Positions 1,284-19,807 of a stretch of 20,439 nt of DNA are shown here, in pieces. Positions within the stretch are counted from its first letter, which is position 1. Every line of letters starts with the position of its first letter. Source of the DNA: a virus; the IMG/VR virus record IMGVR_UViG_3300017752_000233, positions 1 to 20,439 of that record, one strand, 5' to 3'. The notes under the pieces are model-generated. The model worked only from the letters and a program-made list of their open reading frames with translations, had not been told where the DNA came from and did not search any database. Position numbers and translations under genes: made by a program.

Positions 1284-2762
1284 ATGAGTTGGAATTTAGA
1301 CTACACATTTAGCGGTGCATCCAGCGTATTAAACAGCTGGGCAAGCGGATTATCTACTTTTTATTCACAAGAAAGTGACTTTAATGGTATGGGACCATTT
1401 GATCCCAACAATAATAGTGTAAATGAAATATCAAATTTTATGACAGCTGCTACCACCCTTACTCAATGGTGGGATCTTAATAGAATTGGTAATTACAATG
1501 GACCAGGCACTAGTAGAGCAAATCCATATGAAGTACCTTTCAGTGAAAATGCAAAATCTAATATTGTTTCTTCTTTAGGATCAAATGCCGAATCAACAGC
1601 TCTTTGGAACGCTTATTACGATAAAACTAAATATAATTCAGCGGTTGGAAATACTTACTTTAATTTAAATAGTGATCCAAGATATGGTGGTGTTGCATTT
1701 CAAGATAACAAATTAGTAATATATGATGTATATAATTTTGAAGGTATTGGTGATTGGGGCACTGCTCCGACAGAAAGTTTAGATAAAGCTAGATTATCTG
1801 GAGATTTAGTTGGGATGGTTAAATCTCCAGATTTTTTACCATGGCTTATCAAAACAATAGGTGTTATTGTAGTAATGGCCCCAGCAGGAACTGTAACTGC
1901 TCTAATCAGACAACTTGTTATAGCTTTAGGATTTGACCCAACTACAGGACAGTTTGCGGATGGAACACCTATTAGCTCCGTTAATTCACCTTACGTATTA
2001 TATACCAGAGATTTTTTAAATTTACAAATAGGTAATTTAGCAAATTTATATATAAGAAATGAATTTACAGCAGAGGAAGTATGTAAATGGAATCCAGCTT
2101 TATATAGAGACGCTGTTTCAAAAGGATATTTACAAGTTGATGCAGAACCAACTGGATCTTGTTCTCAAATTGGAGCTCAAGCTGATTGTTTTGATGCTAC
2201 AAACAATGTAGTTCCTGTTGGTCAAGCCCAACCAATACCATTATTAGGATTTCCGTATTATGCTCCCCGAGTTATGGAAATATCATCAACTAATCCAACA
2301 TCATGGCAAGTTGGGTCAAATGATAAATATCCATCACCATTTACAAGTTATATACAACAAACATATAACACTGCAAATTATCTTGGTCCATATGCCATGT
2401 GGGGTCCTATAGCAGGTCGGATTTGTCAGATAAGAAGTGGTTCAAATTTTGGTGAACCTGGTTTTATAGCACAGTGCTGGGATGTTTTTGATGATACTCC
2501 TAATAATGTAGATGCTGATGGAGAGAGATATTCGTCAAAATTAGAATGGTGGAACAGTTGTGAATATGCTTATGTTGAGGTTAGAAATTTATTATTTTCA
2601 GGACAACCACCAACATTAGTTAAAGTAGCTGTCAAATCTTTTAGTGGTCCTGCAGCTGACGATGTATGGGGACCAAATTATCAACCAAGTGAATCACCAT
2701 TTGGTACTGTTAGTTTAGGTACTTTAATTCCATTAGTTGCATTAACTAGTAGATATTTTTAA
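1284..2762 (+). CDS. Probable virion structural protein, function unknown
   Basis: 492 residues, family not recognised. The protein is rich in Asn, Ser, Tyr and Trp, typical of virion proteins. Its one outstanding segment is a hydrophobic stretch at about 184-217 (FLPWLIKTIGVIVVMAPAG and on), long enough for one or two membrane-like helices. No signal peptide is seen, so it may be a buried core or a membrane-interacting part. The C-terminal half (about 290-475) has many aromatic and Pro-Gly turns. The ATG follows the previous stop by two bases and has GAGG six bases before it, so translation is probably coupled. Its place between two late structural proteins suggests a baseplate or tail-fibre-region component; this is inference. 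Confidence 0.6.
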   Translation: MSWNLDYTFSGASSVLNSWASGLSTFYSQESDFNGMGPFDPNNNSVNEISNFMTAATTLTQWWDLNRIGNYNGPGTSRANPYEVPFSENAKSNIVSSLGSNAESTALWNAYYDKTKYNSAVGNTYFNLNSDPRYGGVAFQDNKLVIYDVYNFEGIGDWGTAPTESLDKARLSGDLVGMVKSPDFLPWLIKTIGVIVVMAPAGTVTALIRQLVIALGFDPTTGQFADGTPISSVNSPYVLYTRDFLNLQIGNLANLYIRNEFTAEEVCKWNPALYRDAVSKGYLQVDAEPTGSCSQIGAQADCFDATNNVVPVGQAQPIPLLGFPYYAPRVMEISSTNPTSWQVGSNDKYPSPFTSYIQQTYNTANYLGPYAMWGPIAGRICQIRSGSNFGEPGFIAQCWDVFDDTPNNVDADGERYSSKLEWWNSCEYAYVEVRNLLFSGQPPTLVKVAVKSFSGPAADDVWGPNYQPSESPFGTVSLGTLIPLVALTSRYF

Positions 2763-2777
2763 TAGGAGGTTAATAAA

Positions 2778-4874
2778 ATGCCAGCAATTACATCAACAAA
2801 TAAAGAATCATTTAAATCTCATATAAAAACGTGGAGAAAAATATTTACTAGTCCATTACAACAAATAAATTTATCTGATATAGAAAACGTTTTTGAGTAT
2901 ACAAGTAGTTTACTTACAATAGGTTCTCAAACAGTAAAAGTTGGATTATTTGGAGGACGTGAAGGAGATGATGTCTTAGATATAAGTTCATTAACAGGTG
3001 GAGAACTATTATATTTGCCGGGACAAGTATCAGATTATGTTAAAATAAAAACTAATAATACAACAAATAATAATAATGAAGTAACATCTAGTCAAGAACA
3101 TATTGATACTATACATTGGCAATATGCACTTACGCCTAGAGTAGTTTTAGAAGATAATAGCAGTAATTATCTTTATTTAAACGAAACCTTCCAACTTGGA
3201 TCTAAAATATTAACGGTAAAAGCTCTTGGTGGATTATTAGTTTCGGTAGAAGATGCACCAACATATACAGTAACACATACTGCAACTCAGCATGAAGTAT
3301 TGCCTGATGGTTATTTTATAACAGAAGGTGATTCTATTACTTTCACGATAACTACTGCAAATTTTCCTAACGGAAGCAATAGTAGTAACAATACTGGTAA
3401 TGGTACACTATATTGGAGTTTAGGCGGAACAGTAGATAGTAGTGATTTTAATTCAAATAGTGGCAGCGTATATATTTCAAATAATACTGCTAATATAACT
3501 ATTGATTCATTTACTGATACTTCTATTGAATCAGAGTCTTTTAGATTATTTTTAAGAAAAGGTGATTCAGACGGAACAATAGTTGCAACTAGCGATTTTA
3601 TTAGTCTTCGTGATAAAGAAATATCAGTTGCAATTACACCATCAGTAACTACTATTGATGAAGGTGGTCAAGTAACATTTACAGTAAATACTGTTGGTTA
3701 TGATAATGGTGACGTATTATATTACAAACCATTATTTACTAGTGGTCAAGCAGATTCTTCTGATATATCAAATCAATATGGAAGTTTAACAATTAACAAT
3801 AGTACTGCTTCTTTTGTTGTAACTGCATCTCAAGATGTATATGAAGAATCCGCAGAAACATTTCAATATATCATATATGAAAACACAGATCAATCTGGTA
3901 ATGCAATACCTTTGGCCACAAGTTCCAGTGTATCTATTACAAACACCACATCATATAATTTTTCTGTTTCAGCATCTACTATCTCGGAAGTAAATAGTGT
4001 TGTATATACGGTAAACACTGTAGGTATACCAAATGGAACTAGCTTAAGATGGTATATTACAACAATGAGTATGACAGATTTTACTTATAGAAATGGAATT
4101 TTTTATATAAACAATAATACAGGATCATTTACTATCACACCAAAACAAGATTTTGATGTTGAAAGTGATGAAATATTAACAGTTGAATTAAGAGCTTCTT
4201 CATCTTCAACTAGTGTATTATCAACTGTAAATACTATCCCAAATGTAACTGTTACGGATACTCCTTATACAGTAACTGTTACACCATCTTCTCCATTAAC
4301 TATAGTTGAAAGTGCTCATGATTCTACAAGTCAGGTTGTACTTACAATAACAACTACAGGAGCTCCTGATGGCAGTCAATTAACTGTTCATGAAAGAACT
4401 AATACGGGAGATATTACTTTTGATAATTCAACTATAACTATTAATAATAATTCTGCTACTGTTACTGCTACAATTGTTAGGGACGGTAGAACTGAGGGTT
4501 CTGAAGATCATATTATTGATTTTAAAAATCAATCAAGTCAGGTAGTAGCATCATCCCCAACTATTACAATTACCGATACATCTTTTGTTGGTTCTAGAGC
4601 AGATGGGAAAACTTTTGGACCTATAGATGTAACTAGAGATAGCGGAATTGAACAGCTTGCTTCAGATTGGTATGATTTATGTGATATAGATAGTATTGGA
4701 GATGGATCTAAAATTTCATTATTTATAGATAACTCTGGTAGTTTAACAACAGGAAATGTTCAAAAAGCTCTTGAAAAATTTGTAGAAAAATTAGCAGCTA
4801 GAAATATTTCTATAGTAGTAGTTGAAAATTCCAATGAAGATTGGATTACACCTTTTGACACCGTATTAATTTAA
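2778..4874 (+). CDS. Repeat-containing structural/adhesin-like protein with Calx-beta-like repeats and C-terminal vWA-like tip
   Basis: 698 residues. The start is fixed by a strong Shine-Dalgarno, AGGAGG at 2764-2769, eight bases before ATG. Residues 1-160 form an N-terminal domain that may attach to the virion. Residues about 163-600 hold four imperfect beta-sandwich repeats of about 100 residues, each with E-G/S near the start, FTV.T strands, an NNSTA/NNTGS strand, an acidic ESAETF-type loop and a closing strand ending in D/N-T/K. This is the Calx-beta-like pattern common in marine phage structural proteins. Residues 644-698 read SKISLFIDNSGSLTTG and on, with a DxSxS metal site (D651, S653, S655), ending SNEDWITPFDTVLI. 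Only half of a full vWA domain fits. Probably a distal tail or fibre protein in host or surface contact. Confidence 0.65.
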   Translation: MPAITSTNKESFKSHIKTWRKIFTSPLQQINLSDIENVFEYTSSLLTIGSQTVKVGLFGGREGDDVLDISSLTGGELLYLPGQVSDYVKIKTNNTTNNNNEVTSSQEHIDTIHWQYALTPRVVLEDNSSNYLYLNETFQLGSKILTVKALGGLLVSVEDAPTYTVTHTATQHEVLPDGYFITEGDSITFTITTANFPNGSNSSNNTGNGTLYWSLGGTVDSSDFNSNSGSVYISNNTANITIDSFTDTSIESESFRLFLRKGDSDGTIVATSDFISLRDKEISVAITPSVTTIDEGGQVTFTVNTVGYDNGDVLYYKPLFTSGQADSSDISNQYGSLTINNSTASFVVTASQDVYEESAETFQYIIYENTDQSGNAIPLATSSSVSITNTTSYNFSVSASTISEVNSVVYTVNTVGIPNGTSLRWYITTMSMTDFTYRNGIFYINNNTGSFTITPKQDFDVESDEILTVELRASSSSTSVLSTVNTIPNVTVTDTPYTVTVTPSSPLTIVESAHDSTSQVVLTITTTGAPDGSQLTVHERTNTGDITFDNSTITINNNSATVTATIVRDGRTEGSEDHIIDFKNQSSQVVASSPTITITDTSFVGSRADGKTFGPIDVTRDSGIEQLASDWYDLCDIDSIGDGSKISLFIDNSGSLTTGNVQKALEKFVEKLAARNISIVVVENSNEDWITPFDTVLI
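3264..4577 (+). repeat. Four imperfect ~100-residue Calx-beta-like protein repeats
   Basis: Within the gene at 2778-4874. The repeats cover roughly residues 163-279, 282-389, 393-494 and 497-600. Shared landmarks are TVT/SVA openings, E near residue 20, VxFTVNTVG or TFTITTA strands, NN(S/N)(T/A) before the second long strand, and E-S-(A/D/E)-E-(T/S/I) loops. DNA identity between repeats is low, so these are old protein repeats and not recent DNA duplications. Confidence 0.6.
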
Positions 4875-7765: not shown

Positions 7766-8811
7766 CAATTGCTCTGATTACCGATCAACATTTAGATGGT
7801 CGTAAAAGTTCCCAGATTTTCTGGGATTATTTTATTAAATTTTATGAAAACGTATTCTTTCCATCACTAGAAAAATATAAAGTAAAAACTATTATTGATC
7901 TGGGAGATACATTCGATAATCGTAAAGGTATTGATCTTGGTGCATGGTATCGTATTAAGAAAAATTATTACGATAAACTTGCTAGTATGGGTATCACTGT
8001 TCACATGATCGTGGGCAATCACACTGCATATTATAAGAATACTAATACAATCAATACTCCTGATTTACTTCTAGAACAGTATGACAATATTCATATCTAT
8101 AGTGAAGTAGAAGATATTGTAGTGGATGGTTTGAAGATTACAATGCTTCCTTGGATTAATTCTGAGAATCAAGAATCATCTTTTGAACATCTAAAAAATA
8201 CTGACTCAACTATAGTTATGGGTCACCTTGAAATCTCTGGATTTCAGGCAATTCCTGGTCATGTATTTGAAGGTGGTATTCAAGCAAAAGCTTTTAGTAA
8301 ATTTGATAAAGTATTATCGGGACACTTTCATCATAAATCGGAACGTGGAAACATTAAGTATCTTGGAAATCCATACGAAATGTTCTGGAACGATTATAAG
8401 GCAGAAAGAGGATTTCATCTACTAGATCCTAAAACTAAAAAATTGGGATTCATTAAAAATCCTTATAGTATCTTTAAAAAAATTTACTATAATGATAAAA
8501 CTAATGACTACAATAAATTTGATCCATCGGAATATACTGATACGTATATTAAAATATTTGTAGAGGAGAGAACAGATAATGTTATGTTTGAAAAAATTCT
8601 AGAGAAGCTTTATGATATTGGAGTTCATGATATCAAAGTTATTGAAACTGATAATCTAGACCTAGGTGACAGTGAAGAAACTTTTGAAGGTGAAGATACC
8701 CTCACCACACTTAACAGATACATAGATGAAAGTGAAAATATAAATTTAGATAGAAATAGTATTAAAAATATTATTAAATCAATTTACGTTGAAGCCTGCG
8801 AGGTACAATAA
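7762..8811 (+). CDS. 47: gp47 recombination nuclease subunit (Mre11-like)
   Basis: 349 residues (T4 gp47 339). Together with gp46 it forms the Mre11/Rad50-type complex that resects DNA ends for recombination-dependent replication and host DNA breakdown. Calcineurin-type phosphoesterase motifs are complete: TDQH with D8 and H10, LGDTFDNR with D49, GNH 85-87, MGHLE with H155, and GHFH 187-190. The C-terminal part (about 240-349) is the capping and gp46-binding region. It overlaps gp55 by four bases, and the DUF3110 gene starts immediately after its stop. Confidence 0.95.
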   Translation: MTIALITDQHLDGRKSSQIFWDYFIKFYENVFFPSLEKYKVKTIIDLGDTFDNRKGIDLGAWYRIKKNYYDKLASMGITVHMIVGNHTAYYKNTNTINTPDLLLEQYDNIHIYSEVEDIVVDGLKITMLPWINSENQESSFEHLKNTDSTIVMGHLEISGFQAIPGHVFEGGIQAKAFSKFDKVLSGHFHHKSERGNIKYLGNPYEMFWNDYKAERGFHLLDPKTKKLGFIKNPYSIFKKIYYNDKTNDYNKFDPSEYTDTYIKIFVEERTDNVMFEKILEKLYDIGVHDIKVIETDNLDLGDSEETFEGEDTLTTLNRYIDESENINLDRNSIKNIIKSIYVEACEVQ

Positions 8812-9087
8812 ATGTTCATTCTAACGGTGACAGATGCGGATTCTGAAGGTGCGTATGCAGTGATCACAAAAGAAGGCGATAAAGTTCTTCAATTGTTTGA
8901 GCAATCTGATGATGCACAAAGATATATTGGACTCCTGGAAGCAGATGGTTTTCCTTCTGTGGAAGCAACTGAAATCGAAGGTGAACAGGTAGTTGCGGCA
9001 TGTGAGAGATTCGGGTATAATTACGTTATAATAACACCAGACGACTTTGTAATCCCACCAAAAACTGATTCGCATGATTTTATTTAA
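8812..9087 (+). CDS. DUF3110 family protein
   Basis: 91 residues. It matches the cyanobacterial DUF3110 pattern: MFILTVTDADSEGAYAV, then VLQLFEQSDDAQRYIGLLEA (26-45), DGFPSVEATEIEGEQVV and a GYNYVIITPDD ending. The family is found mainly in cyanobacteria and their phages and has no established function. GAGG eleven bases or so before the ATG is a plausible ribosome binding site. It sits between gp47 and gp46 and overlaps gp46 by 14 bases. In T4 this interval holds other small genes, so this is a lineage-specific insertion. A link to end-processing is only positional. Confidence 0.75.
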   Translation: MFILTVTDADSEGAYAVITKEGDKVLQLFEQSDDAQRYIGLLEADGFPSVEATEIEGEQVVAACERFGYNYVIITPDDFVIPPKTDSHDFI

Positions 9088-10792
9088 GAGTGTAACTTAT
9101 AAAAACTTCCTTGCCACTGGAAACAATCCTATAACAATTTGTTTAAATTCTACAAACACCACGTTGATTGTAGGACAAAATGGTGCTGGTAAGAGTACCA
9201 TAATTGAAGCAATTGTATTTGCGTTGTTTAATAAATCTTTTCGTAAGGTTAATAAGAGTCAACTTATTAACAGTATTAATGAAAAGGATTGTGTAGTAGA
9301 AGTTATATTTTCTATTGGTACTACAGAATGGTTGGTTCGCCGTGGAATGAAACCTGGTATCTTTGAAATTCATAAGAACGGAGTTTTACTAGATCAACAA
9401 TCTTCTGCCGTAGATCAACAAAAATGGTTTGAACAATATGTATTAAAACTAAACTACAAATCATTTACTCAGATTGTTGTACTAGGGTCTTCTACATTTG
9501 TTCCCTTCATGCAGTTACCAGCTGCATCGCGTAGAGAGATCATTGAAGATCTTTTAGACATTCGTATCTTCTCTACGATGAATGTTATTCTGAAAGACAA
9601 AGTAAAATCTTCGTCTGAAGAACTTAGGAGTTATGAGACTGATGTTTCTTTCCTAAAAGAGAAAGCTGATATGCAAAGTAATCATATTAAGTCATTAGAA
9701 AAAACCGCAAAGAAAACCATAACTCAAAAGGAAGATAAAATTGTAGAACTGGATAGTGGTATCGAATTATTGAATGAAGATATTGAACAAGCCAATACCC
9801 ATGCAACTCAACTGTTGGAAGAAGTAACCAAGTTTGATGGTATTGATAAACAAATTAAAAAACTTGAGAAAGAGATTACAACAAATACTAACTTAATTTC
9901 TAGGACGGAGAAAGAAGAAAACTTTTTTGTAGATAATGATGTATGTCCAAAGTGTACACAACCTATAACTAAAGATCTTAAGAAAAAGCATCTTCTTCAA
10001 TCCTCTAAAATTATTCATGATACAACTGAGCTAGTTGAAAAATATAAGAGTCAACTTCAGAAATCAAATAAACTAGTTAAAAAACAAACTGAAATGAATA
10101 GAGAGGTCTCTGATATTAATTGGGACATCAAAACAAAATTGCAAGCTATAAAAACAACTCAAAAAATTATCTTAGATATTAAAGGTGAGATTGAAGAGTT
10201 GAAGAATGATAATCTAGATATTGATGGTGAGAAAGAAAAACTTATTGCAATTGCAAATCAGGGATTAACAGTACAAAAATCTATAGGTGAAGTAAAAGAA
10301 ACTAAAAGAAATTATGATGTAATTTCTTCTTTGCTTAAGGATGGTGGTATTAAGTCAATGATTATTAGGAAGTATCTTCCTGTAATGAACCAACTTATTA
10401 ATAAGTACCTACAAGAACTTGACTTCTATGTAAACTTTACATTAGATGAAGAGTTTAATGAAAGTATTAAATCTAGACATAGAGATGATTTTACTTACAG
10501 CTCTTTCAGTGAAGGTGAGAAGATGAGAATTGATCTTGCTCTAATGTTTACTTGGAGATCTATTGCTAAACTAAAAAACTCTGCAAATACAAATCTTCTT
10601 ATTCTAGATGAAGTCTTTGATTCATCTCTAGACGTTGGTGGTACTGACGAGTTCCTTAGAATTATCCGAGGAGTTCAGGATGATACTAATGTTTTTATTA
10701 TCTCTCATAAAGGAGATGTACTTATGGATAAGTTTGATAGAGTTATGAAATTTGACAAGGTTAAAAACTTTAGTAAAGTAACAATCTCATGA
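9074..10792 (+). CDS. 46: gp46 recombination nuclease subunit (Rad50/SMC-like ATPase)
   Basis: 572 residues (T4 gp46 560). This is the ATPase partner of gp47. Walker A GQNGAGKST lies at 34-42. Two long coiled-coil arms (about 180-285 and 300-400) flank a zinc hook CPKC at 291-294. The ABC signature FSEGEK is at 478-483, Walker B LLILDEVFD at 508-516, and the switch His in IISHKGD near the C-terminus. All expected motifs are present, so the enzyme should be active. It starts inside the DUF3110 gene and shares ATGA with the cpeT-like gene, so all are translated together. Confidence 0.96.
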   Translation: MILFKSVTYKNFLATGNNPITICLNSTNTTLIVGQNGAGKSTIIEAIVFALFNKSFRKVNKSQLINSINEKDCVVEVIFSIGTTEWLVRRGMKPGIFEIHKNGVLLDQQSSAVDQQKWFEQYVLKLNYKSFTQIVVLGSSTFVPFMQLPAASRREIIEDLLDIRIFSTMNVILKDKVKSSSEELRSYETDVSFLKEKADMQSNHIKSLEKTAKKTITQKEDKIVELDSGIELLNEDIEQANTHATQLLEEVTKFDGIDKQIKKLEKEITTNTNLISRTEKEENFFVDNDVCPKCTQPITKDLKKKHLLQSSKIIHDTTELVEKYKSQLQKSNKLVKKQTEMNREVSDINWDIKTKLQAIKTTQKIILDIKGEIEELKNDNLDIDGEKEKLIAIANQGLTVQKSIGEVKETKRNYDVISSLLKDGGIKSMIIRKYLPVMNQLINKYLQELDFYVNFTLDEEFNESIKSRHRDDFTYSSFSEGEKMRIDLALMFTWRSIAKLKNSANTNLLILDEVFDSSLDVGGTDEFLRIIRGVQDDTNVFIISHKGDVLMDKFDRVMKFDKVKNFSKVTIS

Positions 10793-11277
10793 TAGATAAA
10801 TTTATAGATTGGTATGTTGGTTCATTTACGAATAGAAAACAAGCATTGTCTCATCCCTTTATGTTTAAAGAAGTTAACCTGAGTCACAAATACTTGGGTG
10901 ACAATACTTTTTATGGTGAACAAAAAACAATGTATACTAATACTACATATCGAAAATTTAAAAATGTAATATCAGAATCTGATGGTTTGATTATTGCAAA
11001 AAATTATACGTTGGATGATAAATATATGCCCAACTGTGATATGGTTTTTAAATTTGATGGTGAACAATTTGTTGGTGAAGTAGAAGGTTGTAATTGTTTC
11101 GTGGAGAGAGAAGGAAAAAAAACATATGTAAAAAATTCTACTTATCTTGGTGAAGATTCTTATAAAGTTTATGACAGAGGTTATGAGGTAGATACTGATG
11201 AATATATCTGGGGCTCTCGGTGGGGACATTTCAAGTTTATTCGGATTGATAAGGAACCCATATGGATTGAGGGTTGA
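10789..11277 (+). CDS. cpeT: CpeT/CpcT-like phycobiliprotein lyase
   Basis: 162 residues. CpeT/CpcT proteins attach or help attach bilin chromophores to phycobiliproteins in cyanobacteria; cyanophages carry short versions as host-derived auxiliary genes. Pattern matches: GSFTNRKQALSHPFMF (11-26), NCDMVFKFDGEQFVGE (82-97), TYVKNSTYLGEDSYKVYDRG (112-131) and EYIWGSRWGHFKF (138-150). The GSFxNxxQA start, the (G/N)CDM strand and the WGSxxGxF end are the family landmarks. Shorter than most host proteins (about 200). Overlaps gp46 by four bases and closes this operon. The family is clear; activity and bilin partner are not known. It suggests tuning of light harvesting in the infected cell. Confidence 0.85.
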   Translation: MIDKFIDWYVGSFTNRKQALSHPFMFKEVNLSHKYLGDNTFYGEQKTMYTNTTYRKFKNVISESDGLIIAKNYTLDDKYMPNCDMVFKFDGEQFVGEVEGCNCFVEREGKKTYVKNSTYLGEDSYKVYDRGYEVDTDEYIWGSRWGHFKFIRIDKEPIWIEG

Positions 11278-11302
11278 CACCCTCCTTCTTTCGTGATAGC
11301 TT
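11274..11302 (+). promoter_or_regulatory. Probable sigma70-like promoter upstream of the zincin-vWA gene
   Basis: Perfect -35 TTGACA (11274-11279), 17-base spacer, and a poor -10 TAGCTT (11297-11302), preceded by an extended TG (11294-11295). It overlaps the end of cpeT. It shares the pattern TTGAC-N2-CCTCC-N16-TAGCT, at identical spacing, with the promoter at 13470, which supports it being real. Confidence 0.55.
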
Positions 11303-11325
11303 AGCTGTATCGATCAAAGACATCT

Positions 11326-13473
11326 ATGTCCATCACACAAGTCAAGAGTAATCTCGCTAAACTGTTAGCAACAGAAAACCTGACCGTTGAACATAGTAAC
11401 GTCTCTACCGCTTCGTTTAATGTTGAGACAAGAGTTCTTCAACTTCCTGTGTGGGAAAATATATCAAATGATGTTTATGATCTCTTGGTAGGTCATGAAG
11501 TAGGACACGCTCTATATACCCCTTCTGCATATATTACAAGGGAAGTACCTCAATCATTTCTTAACGTTGTTGAGGATGCTCGTATTGAACGTAAAATTAA
11601 ATTAAAGTATCCTGGTATTACTAAATCATTTTACCGTGGATATACTGAACTTAATAAACAAGATTTTTTTGAGATCGGTGGAGAAAATCTTTCTGAAATG
11701 AATCTTATCGATAGGATAAATCTGTATTTTAAACTTGGTATTCATGATGTAAATACAATTATTCCTTTCGATGTAGAAGAGGAACAGTTTGTAAATATGT
11801 CAAAAGATGCTGAAACATTTGATGACGTTGTAAGTATTTGTAAAAAAATCCTTGAGTATATTGAAAGTAAATCCGAAAAACAAGAATCCAAATCATTAGA
11901 TGTATCTAATATTAAAGAAGATGGACTCTCTGGCACAGACCAAATTTCAGTTGATGTAACACCTTCTGATGAGTCTGATGAAATGACTCACGAAGAGATG
12001 TTGGATGAAGCTAATAAACGAGAGAAAGAAAATGAATTTGATGATGAAGATTTTGATGGTGAAGTAAAAGACAATGATGAATACACTTCACATACAGATA
12101 GTGCCTGGGGTAAGAATACTAAAACTCTTGTAGATTCTTCTGCTAAAGAACATATCTACATGATTCCTCCTACCATGGATTGGTCTAACTGTATTGAACC
12201 AGTTTCTATGTTCTCTGAAAACATGGATAAGAACATTAAATATTTTGAAGAAAAATATGAGACGATTTATAATGTAATTGATAATTTTAGAACTAAGTTT
12301 AATTCTTTTAAAGTAGAAAATGCTAAATCAGTTTCATTTTTGGTAAAAGAATTTGAAATGAAAAAACAAGCAGATGAATATAATCGTTCGGGTGTATCAA
12401 AAACAGGTGTATTGAATACAAACAAATTATTTTCATATAAATGGTCTGATGATATTTTCAAGAAAAATACAATTGTTCCTGATGGTAAGAATCATGGTCT
12501 TATCATGTATATCGATTGGTCTGGATCAATGGCAGATAATATGTCAGGTACAATCAAACAACTGATTAATCTGATTATGTTCTGTAAAAAAGTAAATATT
12601 CCTTTCCAAGTTTTTGCTTTTAGTGATACGGGTATTTACGATTATAGTAGAAATTATTATGCTCCAGCTAAAGAGTATGAGATTGCTGTAAGTCAAAGAT
12701 TCCGTCTGATTGAAATGTTTAATCATAAGATTAAAAAATCAGAATTTGATGAACAACTTTTCAGACTTTGGGTTCTCATGACCTTTATTGATAAACGTGT
12801 AGAGATTCCATTTGGAAGTTATAGTCTTGGTGGAACCCCATTGAACGATACTATTCTTGCAGCAACTTATGTCTTTAATAAATTCAAAAGAGAAACGGGT
12901 GTTGATAAAGTAAATACAGTATTCCTTACTGATGGTGAGTCTAATAATATGGCATATTCTGTGTTTAAAGGTGAGGGAGAAGAACAATATATTTCTAGAA
13001 AATCCTGTTCATATTCTTCTGAATATTCTGTTCTTTGTTTGAAAGATCCAGCAACTGGTTATAGTGATGTGAATATTAATAACTCTAAAGGGTGGCAAGA
13101 TTCTGGTATGAATATTACTTCTGCTCTACTTCGTTATTACAAGTGGATGACTGGATCTAACATAGTTGGTTTTAGGTTATCTCAATCCCATGATATTAAA
13201 TATATCATTCGATCAGCAGTTAGTTCCGGGGGACATGATTATGATTACTATAGAAAACTATGGCGGACTGCTAAATGTTTTGTTGTTGACTCTGTTGGGT
13301 ATGATGAACTATATGTTATATCAGCATCTTCTGAATTTAATGGAAGTCAAGCTGTAATAGAAGCATCTCATGATGATTCTAAGAGTAAAATCCGACGACA
13401 ATTTAAAAAATATATGAAAACCAAGATGATGAATAAGATAATCTTATCAAAATTTGTTGATCAAATCGCTTGA
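11326..13473 (+). CDS. CobT/NorD-like protein: N-terminal zincin metalloprotease motif plus vWA domain
   Basis: 715 residues. An N-terminal domain carries GHEVGHALYTP, giving HExxH at H57, E58, H61, followed by NVVEDARIERK with E83 as likely third zinc ligand, a gluzincin arrangement. An acidic, disordered-looking stretch (about 217-251) follows, as in CobT. The C-terminal vWA domain has a complete metal site: DWSGS (D397, S399, S401), T504 in GGTPLND and D536 in LTDGES. Proteins of this design pair with MoxR-type AAA+ ATPases, and the CobS-like ATPase is the next gene. In cyanophages such genes are often called peptidase or CobT-like. A true cobaltochelatase role is unproven; a protease or ATP-driven remodelling module fits equally well. 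It has its own promoter at 11274. Confidence 0.72.
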   Translation: MSITQVKSNLAKLLATENLTVEHSNVSTASFNVETRVLQLPVWENISNDVYDLLVGHEVGHALYTPSAYITREVPQSFLNVVEDARIERKIKLKYPGITKSFYRGYTELNKQDFFEIGGENLSEMNLIDRINLYFKLGIHDVNTIIPFDVEEEQFVNMSKDAETFDDVVSICKKILEYIESKSEKQESKSLDVSNIKEDGLSGTDQISVDVTPSDESDEMTHEEMLDEANKREKENEFDDEDFDGEVKDNDEYTSHTDSAWGKNTKTLVDSSAKEHIYMIPPTMDWSNCIEPVSMFSENMDKNIKYFEEKYETIYNVIDNFRTKFNSFKVENAKSVSFLVKEFEMKKQADEYNRSGVSKTGVLNTNKLFSYKWSDDIFKKNTIVPDGKNHGLIMYIDWSGSMADNMSGTIKQLINLIMFCKKVNIPFQVFAFSDTGIYDYSRNYYAPAKEYEIAVSQRFRLIEMFNHKIKKSEFDEQLFRLWVLMTFIDKRVEIPFGSYSLGGTPLNDTILAATYVFNKFKRETGVDKVNTVFLTDGESNNMAYSVFKGEGEEQYISRKSCSYSSEYSVLCLKDPATGYSDVNINNSKGWQDSGMNITSALLRYYKWMTGSNIVGFRLSQSHDIKYIIRSAVSSGGHDYDYYRKLWRTAKCFVVDSVGYDELYVISASSEFNGSQAVIEASHDDSKSKIRRQFKKYMKTKMMNKIILSKFVDQIA

Positions 13474-14943: not shown

Positions 14944-15609
14944 ATGAAAATTTCTATTGAAACTCTGAATATTCTAAAAAACTTTTCCACAATCAATTCT
15001 TCTTTGGTTGTGAAGAAAGGAAATATTCTGAGAACTATCTCTCCAGCAAAAAATATTCTTGCTAAATTCCAATGTCCAGAATCGTTTGAAAATGATTTTG
15101 CTGTATATGATCTAAATGAATTTCTGGGTGGTCTCTCTCTATTTAAGGATCCTGACTTTGATTTCGGTAATCCTTCTTATCTTTCTATTCGCAGTGGAAA
15201 ATCTAAAGTAAAGTATTTCTTTTCAGATCCCAGTGTAATTACTGCTCCCCCTGAAAAAGATATTGAACTTCCAACTATCGATGTGGAGTTTACTTTGACT
15301 GAAGAAGTTCTGTCATCTTTGCTTCGTGCAGCAAGTGTATATCAACTCCCCGATCTTTCCTTGGTTGGTGAGAATGGTGATATGAATCTTGTGGTTCGTA
15401 CAAAGAACAATGACACATCTAATAATTTCTCTGTAAAAGTTGGTGAAACTACTAATGATTTTTGTTTCAATTTTAAAGTAGAGAACCTTAAAATTCTTCC
15501 TGGAGTGTATAATGTTCAAGTATCTACTGCTAACATTTCCCAGTTCACTCACGATAAGTGGAACTTGTCTTACTTGATTGCATTGGAACCTGATTCTACT
15601 TTTAATTAA
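14944..15609 (+). CDS. 45: gp45 sliding clamp
   Basis: 221 residues (T4 gp45 228). Trimeric DNA polymerase processivity clamp, also the mobile activator of gp55-dependent late transcription. The start MKISIETLNILKNFSTINSS matches the T4 family opening, followed by VKKGNILRTISPAKNILA, an acidic FENDFAVYDLNEFLGGLSLF strand-helix unit, and a C-terminal strand WNLSYLIALEPDS. Two gp45-like domains fit (about 1-105 and 110-221). It is followed two bases later by gp44, the conserved order of T4. Confidence 0.93.
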   Translation: MKISIETLNILKNFSTINSSLVVKKGNILRTISPAKNILAKFQCPESFENDFAVYDLNEFLGGLSLFKDPDFDFGNPSYLSIRSGKSKVKYFFSDPSVITAPPEKDIELPTIDVEFTLTEEVLSSLLRAASVYQLPDLSLVGENGDMNLVVRTKNNDTSNNFSVKVGETTNDFCFNFKVENLKILPGVYNVQVSTANISQFTHDKWNLSYLIALEPDSTFN

Positions 15610-15611
15610 TT

Positions 15612-16553
15612 ATGAGTGACTTTATTTGGGTTGAGAAATATCGACCCAACAAAATTGAAGATTGTATTTTACCAGATAGCATCAAAACTACACTGTCTAG
15701 TTTTGTTGAGAAGGGAGAGGTTCCTAATCTTCTTCTCTCTGGACCTCCTGGTATTGGAAAAACCACAGTTGCGAAAGCTCTGTGTAATGAACTTGGCGTT
15801 GACTTTTACGTAATTAATGGATCTGACGAAGGACGATTTCTGGACACGGTACGGAACCAAGCAAAGAATTTTGCGACGACCGTATCACTTCAAGCAAATG
15901 GAAAACCAAAAGTTATCATCATCGATGAAGCTGATAACACAACCAATGATGTACAACTCCTCTTACGGGCAAACATTGAGGCGTATCATAACAACTGCAG
16001 ATTCATCTTCACCTGCAATTACAAAAACAAAATCATCGAACCCCTCCATTCCCGATGTGCAGTCATTGACTTCTCCGTCAACGGAAAAGAAAAGACAGCT
16101 ATTGCGGGGCAATTTTTCAACCGTATCAGGTCTATACTTGAGAAAGAAGCTGTTGATTATGATCCTAAAGTTGTCGCAGAAGTAATCAAAAAATATTTTC
16201 CTGATTGGAGACGTGTTCTTAATGAACTACAAAGATATTCTTCTGTCGGAAGTATTGATACTGGAATTCTGACTACAGTTTCAGAAGTTAATCTAAAAGA
16301 TCTTGTCACTAATATGAAAGGAAAAGATTTTAGTAGGGTCCGAAAGTGGGTAGTTGAAAATCTCGACAATGATCAGAGTGCAGTATATCGTAAAGTTTAT
16401 GATTCAATGTATACTGCTTTGGAACCATCATCTATTCCACAAGCAGTTTTGATCTTTGCTAAATATCAATATCAGTCTGCATTTGCTGTTGATCCAGAGA
16501 TCAATACTCTTGCATGTATGACTGAACTAATGTGTGACTGTAAATTTAAATGA
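15612..16553 (+). CDS. 44: gp44 clamp loader ATPase subunit
   Basis: 313 residues (T4 gp44 319). AAA+ clamp loader that opens gp45 and loads it on primer-template DNA with gp62. Visible are WVEKYRPNKIEDCILP (6-21), Walker A GPPGIGKTT (44-52), Walker B IIIDEAD (102-108), sensor 1 FTCNY (133-137), and the SRC motif (147-149) carrying the arginine finger. The part coding residues about 95-160 is GC-richer and C-rich in codon use (about 43 percent GC in 15961-16080 by hand count against about 30 percent in 16141-16200). It overlaps the next gene by ATGA. Confidence 0.95.
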   Translation: MSDFIWVEKYRPNKIEDCILPDSIKTTLSSFVEKGEVPNLLLSGPPGIGKTTVAKALCNELGVDFYVINGSDEGRFLDTVRNQAKNFATTVSLQANGKPKVIIIDEADNTTNDVQLLLRANIEAYHNNCRFIFTCNYKNKIIEPLHSRCAVIDFSVNGKEKTAIAGQFFNRIRSILEKEAVDYDPKVVAEVIKKYFPDWRRVLNELQRYSSVGSIDTGILTTVSEVNLKDLVTNMKGKDFSRVRKWVVENLDNDQSAVYRKVYDSMYTALEPSSIPQAVLIFAKYQYQSAFAVDPEINTLACMTELMCDCKFK

Positions 16554-17662
16554 TCCTTTCTCCAGAAGATACTCTATACGCATACGGTAAAATTAATGAA
16601 GCTTACGGTTCTATCAACCGTATCGATGACTTCTTTCGTATGAAAAAAATTGAACGTATTAAAGAGATTCCTCCAACTCTCTTTGGTTTGTCTCATGAAG
16701 ATGATCTGTTTCAGGATTTCTCTATGCATCCTGAGGACATGAACTTTCGTATTGTTCAACCAGATCACAGTACGTTTAATACTCTTCTGGAAATGACTGC
16801 ATCGTTTACCTATGAGGAAGCACCAGGTAAAGAGATGAAACTGATGATCCAGGAGACGACCACAGGCACCGCTGTGGGGTTCATCAAACTGGGTTCACCA
16901 ATCATCAATTCAAAACCACGTAACCAGTGGTTAGGAGGGGTTCCAGACCTCACCATCTTTAATAAGCGTGCGATCATGGGATTCATCATTGTTCCCACTC
17001 AACCTTTTGGTTTCAATTATCTTGGTGGTAAACTTCTATCATTGATCTGCTGCAGTCATGAAGTTCGTGAGGTGCTAAATAAAAAGTACAATACAGAAAT
17101 GTGTTTGTTTGAGACAACATCATTGTATGGTAATATAAAAGGAACAAGTCAATACGATGGTTTAAAACCATACCTTCGTTATCGTGGAGATACCGAATCT
17201 AAATTTCTATTGACTCTTCCAGACTCAATTTATCATGACTTGAGTAAGTGGTTTATTGAGAGAAACGGTGGTCCTTTAATTCACAAAGGTGCTTCGAGTC
17301 GTAAACTCAAAATTCAAACCAAGATGATTTCTATCATCAAAAATTCTCTTAAGGAATATTATCCAGATCTTTATATAGAGTTTGTTGCTTTCATCAAATC
17401 AAAACAGGATGTGACAACACAGAAGCGTTTCTATATGTCTGACTATGGATATGAAAATTCTAGAGATGTTATACTTGGTAAAACTGAAACACTAATTCCA
17501 AACAAACAAAACTTTGATAAATTTTATCTCGATAATATGATACAATGGTGGAAGCGTAAAGCTTCTAATCGGTATCAGAAACTTATTGCAGAAGGTTCTT
17601 TGAGAAATGAACTTGAAGTTTGGAATTCTAATACTATGAACACTATTGATATTATCAGATGA
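16550..17662 (+). CDS. DUF4338 / DruA-like protein
   Basis: 370 residues. The central part resembles DUF4338, the family of DruA of the Druantia defence system: AVGFIKLGSPI (108-118), RNQWLGG (124-130), AIMGFIIVPTQPFGFNYLGG (141-160), KLLSLICCSHEVREVLNKKY (161-180), EMCLFETTSLYGNIKGTSQY (183-202) and GLKPYLRYRG. The order of a GS(P) strand, a hydrophobic strand with VP, a long helix ending in Y, an ETTxLYGN/TFVD-type element and a Tyr-rich end is shared. The C-terminal basic helices (about 250-360) are not recognised. Cyanophages commonly have such a gene here. It sits between clamp loader genes, overlapping both neighbours by ATGA. It may act on DNA, but no activity can be read from the sequence. 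Homology is remote and judged by eye. Confidence 0.5.
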   Translation: MILSPEDTLYAYGKINEAYGSINRIDDFFRMKKIERIKEIPPTLFGLSHEDDLFQDFSMHPEDMNFRIVQPDHSTFNTLLEMTASFTYEEAPGKEMKLMIQETTTGTAVGFIKLGSPIINSKPRNQWLGGVPDLTIFNKRAIMGFIIVPTQPFGFNYLGGKLLSLICCSHEVREVLNKKYNTEMCLFETTSLYGNIKGTSQYDGLKPYLRYRGDTESKFLLTLPDSIYHDLSKWFIERNGGPLIHKGASSRKLKIQTKMISIIKNSLKEYYPDLYIEFVAFIKSKQDVTTQKRFYMSDYGYENSRDVILGKTETLIPNKQNFDKFYLDNMIQWWKRKASNRYQKLIAEGSLRNELEVWNSNTMNTIDIIR

Positions 17663-19002
17663 CTCTTACCAAATTTTTAACAGAACAAAAATTTGAAAAA
17701 ACAATACGAATCCTTGTCTATCCAAACATCACATTCTCTAAGGATCTGACTAAAGATAGTTACATTCAGGTAATCACTAATATGATTGCTGAACTAAACA
17801 AGATTCGTAGCGATTTGTTTTTTTATCTGGTCCTTCCAGAGTTCCTGGAGATGCTAGACTTCTATAATACTAAACAGTTTATAATGAAGTTCCCAACGTA
17901 TCCTCCTACGATGCGTTCACACTTTGATGTAGAACATTTTAGGAAACTGATCAATCATGATCTTGACGTTGATCTAGTATTTTCACACCTTCCAGAGCAT
18001 ACACATGCGATCAAAAATACTATCAGTAATGTAACTCACCACAGTCCTTCTTATTTTGGATACTGTCACTGGTTTGATCTGAACGAAGTTGTTGCTTGGA
18101 GTCAACCAAGTTTCAACCAAAATATTCTTGGTCTGCTTGAGATGCAACGTTGTTATCTGAATACACAGAGTCAAAAAAATCTTGTATTGAATCAAGCCTC
18201 TGAAGTCTTTAATAAAGGAACTGTATCTAAACTTAATGACATTCTAGTCCCGCATCATCTAGGTGTTAAAGAATCTGATATTGTAGAACCAAATAAGAAT
18301 ACTGATAAATTAATCGTCTTTAATCATAGACCAGATACATATAAGGACTTTGGTAACTTCATGAAGGTTCTAGAGTCTCTGAGAGACCTTAGACAAGACT
18401 TCACCGTATGGATTCCATTGCTAGAGAAATCAGATAAATCCTGGATTACTACTGAGAAGTTTAATAAGCAAAGATATTACAAAAAACTACAACAGTGTCG
18501 TGTTGGATTTTCACCTAAGCAAGTTTATGGTGGGTGGAGTGTATCGACTACTGATGGTATTATGAATGGTTGTCCATATATCATGTACGATGCTGATTAT
18601 TACCAGGAACTAAATCCAACTGCAGATTTCTTTACTGAGAATTCTGAAGCGGTGAGACTGTTAAACATGTATCTCGATGACAATGATTATCGAAATGATA
18701 TGTCTGTAAAATCTCAACAGTATATTAAAGATAATCTCATATATAAAAATGAGGTAAAGAAGATGAGTGATTATATTGATGATGTAATCAAGTCTCAAAA
18801 TTATATACTGTCTGATGTAACTGAAAGACTTATTTCTATTATTAAAATGAAAGGTCAGGTTACCAAAAAAGAATTGTTTAGTTCTTATCTTGGATGGGGT
18901 AGGGGAATTAAGTTTGGTCCTTACCGTAGAGCTTTACTAAAAAACAAAAACATTTATGATACAATAGATTCTACTCCTCACTACTGTTGGATTGACAATT
19001 AA
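17659..19002 (+). CDS. GT-B glycosyltransferase-like protein with C-terminal winged-helix-like tail
   Basis: 447 residues. Residues 16-200 look like an N-terminal Rossmann half (IRILVYPNITFSKDL, then LFFYLVLPEFLEML). Residues about 217-370 match a GT-B C-terminal half: LIVFNHRPDTYKDFGNFM (219-236), FTVWIPLL, KKLQQCRVGFSP and YGGWSVSTTDGIMNGCPYIM (290-309), the last being the typical sugar-nucleotide-binding loop region. Residues 385-447 (DVTERLISIIKMKG, TKKELFSSYLGWGRG, then a basic FGPYRRALLKNK) look like a winged helix. The gene lies between clamp loader subunits, overlaps the DruA-like gene by ATGA, and is followed three bases later by gp62. Whether it glycosylates DNA, protein or something else cannot be told here. 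Donor and acceptor unknown. Confidence 0.55.
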   Translation: MTLTKFLTEQKFEKTIRILVYPNITFSKDLTKDSYIQVITNMIAELNKIRSDLFFYLVLPEFLEMLDFYNTKQFIMKFPTYPPTMRSHFDVEHFRKLINHDLDVDLVFSHLPEHTHAIKNTISNVTHHSPSYFGYCHWFDLNEVVAWSQPSFNQNILGLLEMQRCYLNTQSQKNLVLNQASEVFNKGTVSKLNDILVPHHLGVKESDIVEPNKNTDKLIVFNHRPDTYKDFGNFMKVLESLRDLRQDFTVWIPLLEKSDKSWITTEKFNKQRYYKKLQQCRVGFSPKQVYGGWSVSTTDGIMNGCPYIMYDADYYQELNPTADFFTENSEAVRLLNMYLDDNDYRNDMSVKSQQYIKDNLIYKNEVKKMSDYIDDVIKSQNYILSDVTERLISIIKMKGQVTKKELFSSYLGWGRGIKFGPYRRALLKNKNIYDTIDSTPHYCWIDN

Positions 19003-19005
19003 ATT

Positions 19006-19389
19006 ATGGAACTAAAGGACTGGCTCAATTCAATTAATCAATCAAAAATTAATATGATTGATGAAGACTATGCTACAGAAAAAGATTATCCTCCATTCAT
19101 TATCAATAAGTGCTTGTCTGGATTTATAGATACAATTCTTATTGCAAATGAAATGAATATTCATTCTGATCTTTCTAAGAAGATGCAATATGATTTTTTT
19201 ATAAATATTGTGAGACCGAAAAAGCGTTTCTCTCCTTGGTTAAGGAAAGAAAAAATTGACTCACTAGAACTTGTCAAAAAGTATTACCACTACAATGATG
19301 AGAAAGCTAGAAGTGCTTTGAAACTTTTATCGGAAGAACAACTTGAATTTATCAAACAAAGGATGAAAACTGGAGGAAAAAATGAGTGA
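19006..19389 (+). CDS. 62: gp62 clamp loader small subunit
   Basis: 127 residues, shorter than T4 gp62 (187) but like cyanophage forms. It joins four gp44 subunits in the clamp loader. Recognisable parts are MELKDWLNSINQSK, the PFIINKCLSGFIDTILIANE segment (30-49), and PKKRFSPWLRKEK (76-88) followed by a helical tail. The same order gp45-gp44-(insert)-gp62-regA supports the call. It overlaps regA by eight bases, and the GGAGG for regA is inside its last codons. Confidence 0.87.
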   Translation: MELKDWLNSINQSKINMIDEDYATEKDYPPFIINKCLSGFIDTILIANEMNIHSDLSKKMQYDFFINIVRPKKRFSPWLRKEKIDSLELVKKYYHYNDEKARSALKLLSEEQLEFIKQRMKTGGKNE

Positions 19390-19807
19390 AGTTCTAGAGT
19401 ATAACTGGTCGCCAGACAAGATGATTGAGGTCACCTTGAAAGAACCAGATGATTTTCTAAAGGTTCGTGAAACTCTAACACGTATTGGTGTAGCGTCACG
19501 TAAAGAAAAGAAGATCTATCAATCCTGTCACATTCTGCATAAACAGGGCAAGTATTATATCGTTCACTTCAAAGAGTTATTTGCTCTTGATGGTAAAAAA
19601 GCAAATCTTTTTGTAAACGATGTCCAACGTAGAAATCGTATTTCACAACTATTATCTGATTGGGGACTTGTGGGTATTGTCAATTCTTCTTCAATTGAAG
19701 ATTGTGCTCCCCTGAGTCAAATCAAAGTTCTCTCCTATAAAGACAAAGGAGAATGGACTCTTGAGAGTAAGTATAACATTGGTAAAAAAAAGACGGCTAA
19801 TCCTTAA
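19382..19807 (+). CDS. regA: RegA translational repressor
   Basis: 141 residues. RegA binds start regions of early mRNAs (in T4 including gp44 and gp45) and blocks translation. The match to T4 RegA is strong: MIEVTLKEPDDFLKVRETLT (14-33), YQSCHILHKQGKYYIVHFKE (46-65), LLSDWGLVGIV and EWTLESKYNIG. T4 RegA (122 residues) begins at the equivalent of Met14, so this protein has 13 extra N-terminal residues (MSEVLEYNWSPDK). GGAGG five bases before the ATG at 19382 supports the long start, although ATG at 19421 is possible. The 3' end overlaps a convergent minus-strand gene and its terminator. Confidence 0.95.
   Translation: MSEVLEYNWSPDKMIEVTLKEPDDFLKVRETLTRIGVASRKEKKIYQSCHILHKQGKYYIVHFKELFALDGKKANLFVNDVQRRNRISQLLSDWGLVGIVNSSSIEDCAPLSQIKVLSYKDKGEWTLESKYNIGKKKTANP

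Follow-up and report, generated by a model that had tools for sequence, protein, structure and literature searches.

The acceptors of GT4 enzymes are mostly small molecules, lipids, or proteins. Phages commonly encode DruA/DUF4338 proteins, and DruA is a component of the Druantia defense system. In T4, gene 42 (hydroxymethylase) and b-gt lie between gp43 and uvsX, and the T4 enzymes AGT and BGT have the GT-B fold. In T6-like phages, a separate family, TAGT (PF20691), has been tied to di-glucosylated cytosine (PMC13390438). The coupling of a GNAT modification enzyme to nucleases has a precedent in the Mom of jumbo phages; momylation modules (Mu Mom and those of jumbo phages) carry REase domains (PMC7824862). 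DUF4338 has been assigned to the GNAT-type acetyltransferase fold (PMC10853773), and DruA-like folds in Synechococcus phages were noted independently by Phold (PMC12774648). In the open-licence PMC papers that we searched, no enzymatic activity, on DNA or otherwise, is reported for DruA, and no module that combines DruA, a winged-helix glycosyltransferase, and exchangeable partners is described.

We analyzed a 20.4-kb virus record, IMGVR_UViG_3300017752_000233 (the whole stretch is referred to here as the window). It encodes UvsY, a UvsW-type helicase, gp55, gp47, gp46, a MoxR-like ATPase, gp45, gp44, gp62, and RegA, which are T4-like genes; by its gene content, the window represents part of a T4-like phage genome. 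A cyanomyophage is the most likely source because a CpeT antenna gene is present beside the T4-like set. This CpeT-like gene, a marker of a cyanobacterial host, is found at positions 10789 to 11277, between gp46 and a peptidase gene. The initial annotation had placed a glycosyltransferase gene among clamp loader genes, and Pfam and PHROG profiles bear this out. In order, and all on the plus strand, we identified the gp45 sliding clamp (14944 to 15609; phrog_223, E = 2.8e-87), the gp44 clamp-loader ATPase (15612 to 16553; phrog_168, E = 1.4e-134), a DruA/DUF4338-like gene of the GNAT-type family (16550 to 17662; 370 amino acids), the glycosyltransferase (17659 to 19002; 447 amino acids), the gp62 clamp-loader small subunit (19006 to 19389; Phage_clamp_A and phrog_225), and the RegA translational repressor (19382 to 19807; Translat_reg and phrog_242). 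The run from gp44 to regA is tightly packed. The gp44 stop and DruA start share an ATGA (16550 to 16553), as do the DruA stop and glycosyltransferase start (17659 to 17662), an arrangement that suggests translational coupling at both junctions.

The initial annotation had overlooked that the gene adjoining the glycosyltransferase belongs to the DruA/DUF4338 family (Pfam DruA, E = 1.3e-10 and 41.4 bits against a gathering cutoff of 27; phrog_19197, E = 4.9e-153; PADLOC DruA, E = 2.4e-6). It thus falls into the same Pfam/PADLOC family as DruA of Druantia type I, and cyanophage DruA-like proteins share fold similarity by Phold (PMC12774648). Unlike in Druantia type I, however, no DruB, DruC, DruD, or DruE gene was identified around the module. 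The Mom modules of phages likewise unite a GNAT-type enzyme with nucleases, but the partner here is a glycosyltransferase, and profile comparison did not demonstrate a relation between the DruA family and Mom: a test with a shallow profile and the single sequence of Mu Mom gave no significant relation.

The open reading frame of the glycosyltransferase is intact and begins with ATG. Homologs were found at about 150 loci, with 47 to 100% identity, in IMG/VR and on four metagenome-assembled genome (MAG) contigs, and the reading frame is confirmed as a real gene, far above chance. Searches with tblastn found no homologs in cultured phages or plasmids, and none was found by sequence in the PDB. 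In an alignment of 57 family members, 70 columns were invariant. The motif that the initial annotation had quoted as a GT-B-like donor site, YGGWSVSTTDGIMNGCPY, is present, and Q288, Y290, G292, W293, S294, T298, D299, M302, N303, and P306 are invariant among the 57 sequences; the donor-domain motif defined from the alignment, QVYGGWSVSTTDGIMNGCP, spans residues 288 to 306 (18520 to 18576, plus strand). Although D299 is invariant, the classical GT4 pair of EX7E glutamates is not recognizable. A second conserved motif, IVFNHRPDTYKDF, spans residues 219 to 231 (18313 to 18351, plus strand) and includes the invariant residues R224 and K229, which fall where GT4 enzymes bind donor phosphates and may have the same function. 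Pfam support for the single window sequence was below threshold (Glyco_trans_1_2, E = 0.0099); across the family, Glycos_transf_1 was matched in 14 of the 57 members and Glyco_trans_1_2 in 9. A match of the window protein to the Oedema-factor helical domain (E = 0.0023, below the cutoff) occurred in 1 of the 57 members and was attributed to chance.

Stronger evidence for a GT-B glycosyltransferase came from the predicted fold. An AlphaFold2 model built from the 57-sequence alignment (pLDDT, 91.1; pTM, 0.87) shows two Rossmann-like domains in a GT-B architecture; an earlier model from a shallow alignment (pLDDT, 54) was set aside. Foldseek matched the model to solved structures of GT4 enzymes with E values of about 1e-12, the nearest being MshA, BshA, PimB', methylmannose-polysaccharide mannosyltransferase, and a glycosyltransferase of phage HY126. 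On the basis of this model, we assign the window protein to the GT4-type GT-B glycosyltransferases. It shares with the retaining GT4 enzymes MshA, BshA, and PimB' the fold and the place of the Arg/Lys motif in the donor domain, but it is only 9 to 14% identical to them, is without a clear EX7E pair, and has an extra C-terminal domain. In the comparison with T4 AGT and BGT that the initial annotation had called for, the GT-B fold and the occurrence in T4-like phages are common to both, whereas hhalign found no profile relation (probability, <1%), and the window enzyme differs in its winged-helix tail and in having DruA rather than dCMP hydroxymethylase as a partner. A weaker viral structural match is a protein named "DNA alpha-glucosyltransferase" (E = 8.6e-10).

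The C-terminal domain (residues 386 to 447; 18814 to 18999, plus strand) comprises 62 residues with block pLDDT values of 74 to 95. In the model, DSSP assigns helices to residues 386 to 398, 403 to 411, and 420 to 428 and strands to residues 400 to 402, 432 to 435, and 441 to 444. This order (α-β-α-α-β-β) corresponds to a predicted winged-helix topology, with a conserved core of GWGRGIK(F/W)xPYRRAL. Searched alone, the domain gave no matches. The tail had been described as basic and as resembling a DNA-binding winged helix; its topology agrees with that description, but its basicity is only mild, with a net charge of +5 in the window protein and a family mean of +2.2 (outside the tail, the family mean is -8.6).

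The glycosyltransferase and DruA are obligately linked. In 37 of 37 loci retrieved by the glycosyltransferase sequence alone, counting only loci with 3.5 kb on both sides of the gene, DruA was one or two genes away. The same was true within three genes for all 28 loci of a nonredundant set (<90% identity) that adds MAG loci and a few loci found through DruA searches. The pair is found at several genomic sites: between gp44 and gp62, between Hsp20/peroxiredoxin genes and lysozyme genes, and between gp43 and uvsX, the site that gene 42 and b-gt occupy in T4. On a MAG contig assigned to Acidiferrobacteraceae (L152), an MTase_II/ParB-like N terminus is fused to DruA (9512 to 11374, minus strand) and is divergent from a glycosyltransferase homolog (7992 to 9491, plus strand), possibly a cellular version of the pair.

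The other genes of the modules are variable. In several modules the glycosyltransferase is followed by TAGT (PF20691, up to E = 1.4e-21; phrog_842, beta-glucosyl-HMC-alpha-glucosyltransferase, E = 9e-30), which is a separate family that the window enzyme does not match but probably acts in the same pathway. Further companions are a second GT-B enzyme and an RfaE/TagD-type nucleotidyltransferase (closest to rfaE_dom_II, E = 6.8e-24). Nuclease-type neighbors include Tsp45I, GmrSD_N plus HNH, and GIY-YIG/ParB-type genes, and additional neighbors were read as ParB/PD-(D/E)xK-like by eye only. DruA loci without the window-type glycosyltransferase often carry a 328-amino-acid protein (c24) instead. 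Among 40 well-flanked loci retrieved by c24, DruA was present in 39 and the window-type glycosyltransferase in none. We refer to c24 only as a putative glycosyltransferase because its relation to T4 AGT is merely suggestive (hhalign E = 0.016); one member matches phrog_7922, a beta-glucosyltransferase (E = 1.4e-4). At locus L177 (4421 to 6918), a putative 213-amino-acid nuclease and an N6_N4 methyltransferase are inserted between a putative alternative glycosyltransferase and TAGT, beside DruA. At locus L203, the gene that immediately follows a GIY-YIG/ParB-type gene encodes an amino acid:DNA transferase (2646 to 3644; PF18724, E = 2.1e-19), and DruA lies two genes downstream of it.

We consider DruA and the glycosyltransferase to be a DNA-modification pair, and DNA glycosylation is the best reading of the locus, one that we hold with moderate confidence. 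This reading rests on the GT-B body, the DNA-binding-type tail, the coupling to a GNAT-family gene and to replication genes, and the presence of a DNA-glucosylation family in the modules. Three features make DNA the likeliest substrate: the obligate link to DruA; the TAGT, other glycosyltransferase, and nuclease neighbors; and the positions of the modules. Glycosylation of viral DNA, as put forward in the initial annotation, gains from these same features, while the scheme based on T4-like hydroxymethylated pyrimidines does not. In the mechanism that we propose, the winged-helix-type tail would bring the enzyme to DNA, the DruA-like GNAT protein would probably install or prepare a group on a base, much as Mom modifies adenine, and the glycosyltransferase would add a sugar to the group made by DruA, either during replication or after it. 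In relatives, the sugar may be extended by TAGT or another GT-B enzyme, the RfaE/TagD-type nucleotidyltransferase may provide an activated sugar or polyol, and DNA without the mark may be the target of an exchangeable nuclease. Much more tentatively, DruA and the winged-helix glycosyltransferase (or the alternative one) could form a base-hypermodification pathway whose starting point is something other than a hydroxymethylated pyrimidine. In such a pathway, the GNAT protein would make the acceptor on a base, the glycosyltransferases would glycosylate it, and the nucleases would make use of the distinction between marked and unmarked DNA. If so, the DruA family would have a biochemical role. 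The occurrence of the DruA-glycosyltransferase pair in abundant marine phages allows a direct test for a new sugar-bearing base and, should such marks not simply block restriction, for what they do.

The main rival explanation is that the enzyme, together with RfaE-like and other glycosyltransferase partners, glycosylates host lipopolysaccharide (LPS) or surface glycans and blocks superinfection, and that its site among replication genes results from chance module shuffling. Glycosyltransferases of pelagimyophages have been interpreted in this way, with rfaE counted as LPS related (PMC7029224), and a link to capsule modification has been drawn for cyanophage glycosyltransferase clusters (PMC7824862). 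The nucleotidyltransferase, closest as it is to rfaE_dom_II, would fit LPS chemistry, and the GT4 structural neighbors are small-molecule, lipid, or polysaccharide enzymes. However, the RfaE-type gene is missing from the cassettes of the window's own clade, and an envelope function would not lead one to expect DruA in every testable locus, a winged-helix tail, TAGT and nuclease neighbors, or ATGA coupling to gp44. We therefore regard this explanation as unlikely. Modification of a DNA-bound or replication protein, of phage or host, with the tail localizing the enzyme, is improbable: it would fit the operon position, the winged helix, a GNAT fold in DruA that could acylate proteins, and the presence of the protein glycosyltransferase SdgB among the Foldseek matches, but the frequent TAGT and nuclease partners and ADDT, a DNA hypermodification enzyme, in related modules point to nucleic acid.

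The initial annotation had reported no base hydroxylase gene in the window and had suggested a search for a dCMP hydroxymethylase or a J-binding-type oxygenase as partner. We likewise identified no acceptor-making enzyme in the window or in the related contigs searched. Thymidylate-synthase-family (PF00303) hydroxymethylases were not found in 20 contigs (up to 87 kb for those with the glycosyltransferase and 140 to 161 kb for the sister DruA module), no C5-methylase was matched in the contigs searched, and there was no Tet/JBP match in these contigs, in a search that gave no signal in any control genome and so leaves absence unproven. A classical T4-like system, in which the enzyme would glucosylate 5-hydroxymethylcytosine or -uracil supplied by a hydroxymethylase or TET enzyme encoded elsewhere in the genome, could draw on TAGT (known from hmC glucosylation) in some modules, on 2OG-Fe(II) oxygenase genes near some modules, and on the window being only a fragment, but these null searches, the missing AGT/BGT relation, and strong avoidance of restriction sites, the C-containing sites CCGG and CGCG included, make it very improbable.

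Site avoidance also bears on restriction evasion, which the initial annotation had named as the purpose of DNA glucosylation in T4. In several distant phages with the glycosyltransferase, GATC is nearly absent, and the same holds for CCGG, CGCG, or ACGT in some. The window itself, like its clade, shows mild avoidance only (GATC, 79 versus 102 expected; CCGG, 5 versus 11.6; GTAC, 37 versus 66; GTSAC, 19 versus 16.8). Because recognition sites have been purged in several of these phages, a genome-wide protective mark is argued against, and any mark in the site-avoiding phages is sparse, site specific, or not for restriction evasion. The only nuclease that could be tested for protection by modification was Tsp45I. 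The 47.8-kb contig that carries it (L312 to L314, the contig of L070) has 0 GTSAC sites compared to 37.8 expected, so that the enzyme is tolerated through the total absence of sites, whereas GTSAC counts are normal in L084, a related module without Tsp45I. A classical restriction-modification pair of Tsp45I and the glycosyltransferase module is thus ruled out. The Tsp45I-family type II enzyme is encoded at L070 (5247 to 6011), and its contig has no recognizable N6/N4- or C5-methyltransferase; GGWCC and ACGT are absent there too, and GATC occurs 33 times against 192. GTSAC and GGWCC are also both missing from the 9 to 11 kb of another DruA group (L195, L296, and L298), which has an REase-like 181-amino-acid gene by DruA.

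Related genes also occur in cultured phages. S-PRM1 and S-SSM7 carry DruA but not the window-type glycosyltransferase. In Pelagibacter phage HTVC008M, likewise without the window-type enzyme, a DruA-like gene and a putative alternative glycosyltransferase are ∼15 kb apart (L308, 3001 to 4008; L150, 4001 to 5125). The best viral structural matches of the window enzyme include full-length glycosyltransferases of the Arthrobacter phages Kitkat (gp93) and BeatusComedenti (TMq, 0.76 to 0.77; hhalign E = 6.6e-4 over 332 columns). The Kitkat genome is not T4-like, and no DruA-like gene was recognized near gp93, but a ParB_N gene is two genes away and gp88 is a second glycosyltransferase-like gene. 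The region from gp87 to gp95 (L364, 4110 to 9444), with a Vsr/REase-like gene at gp87 and ParB_N at gp95, makes this unrelated phage a possible model in culture for DNA glycosylation.
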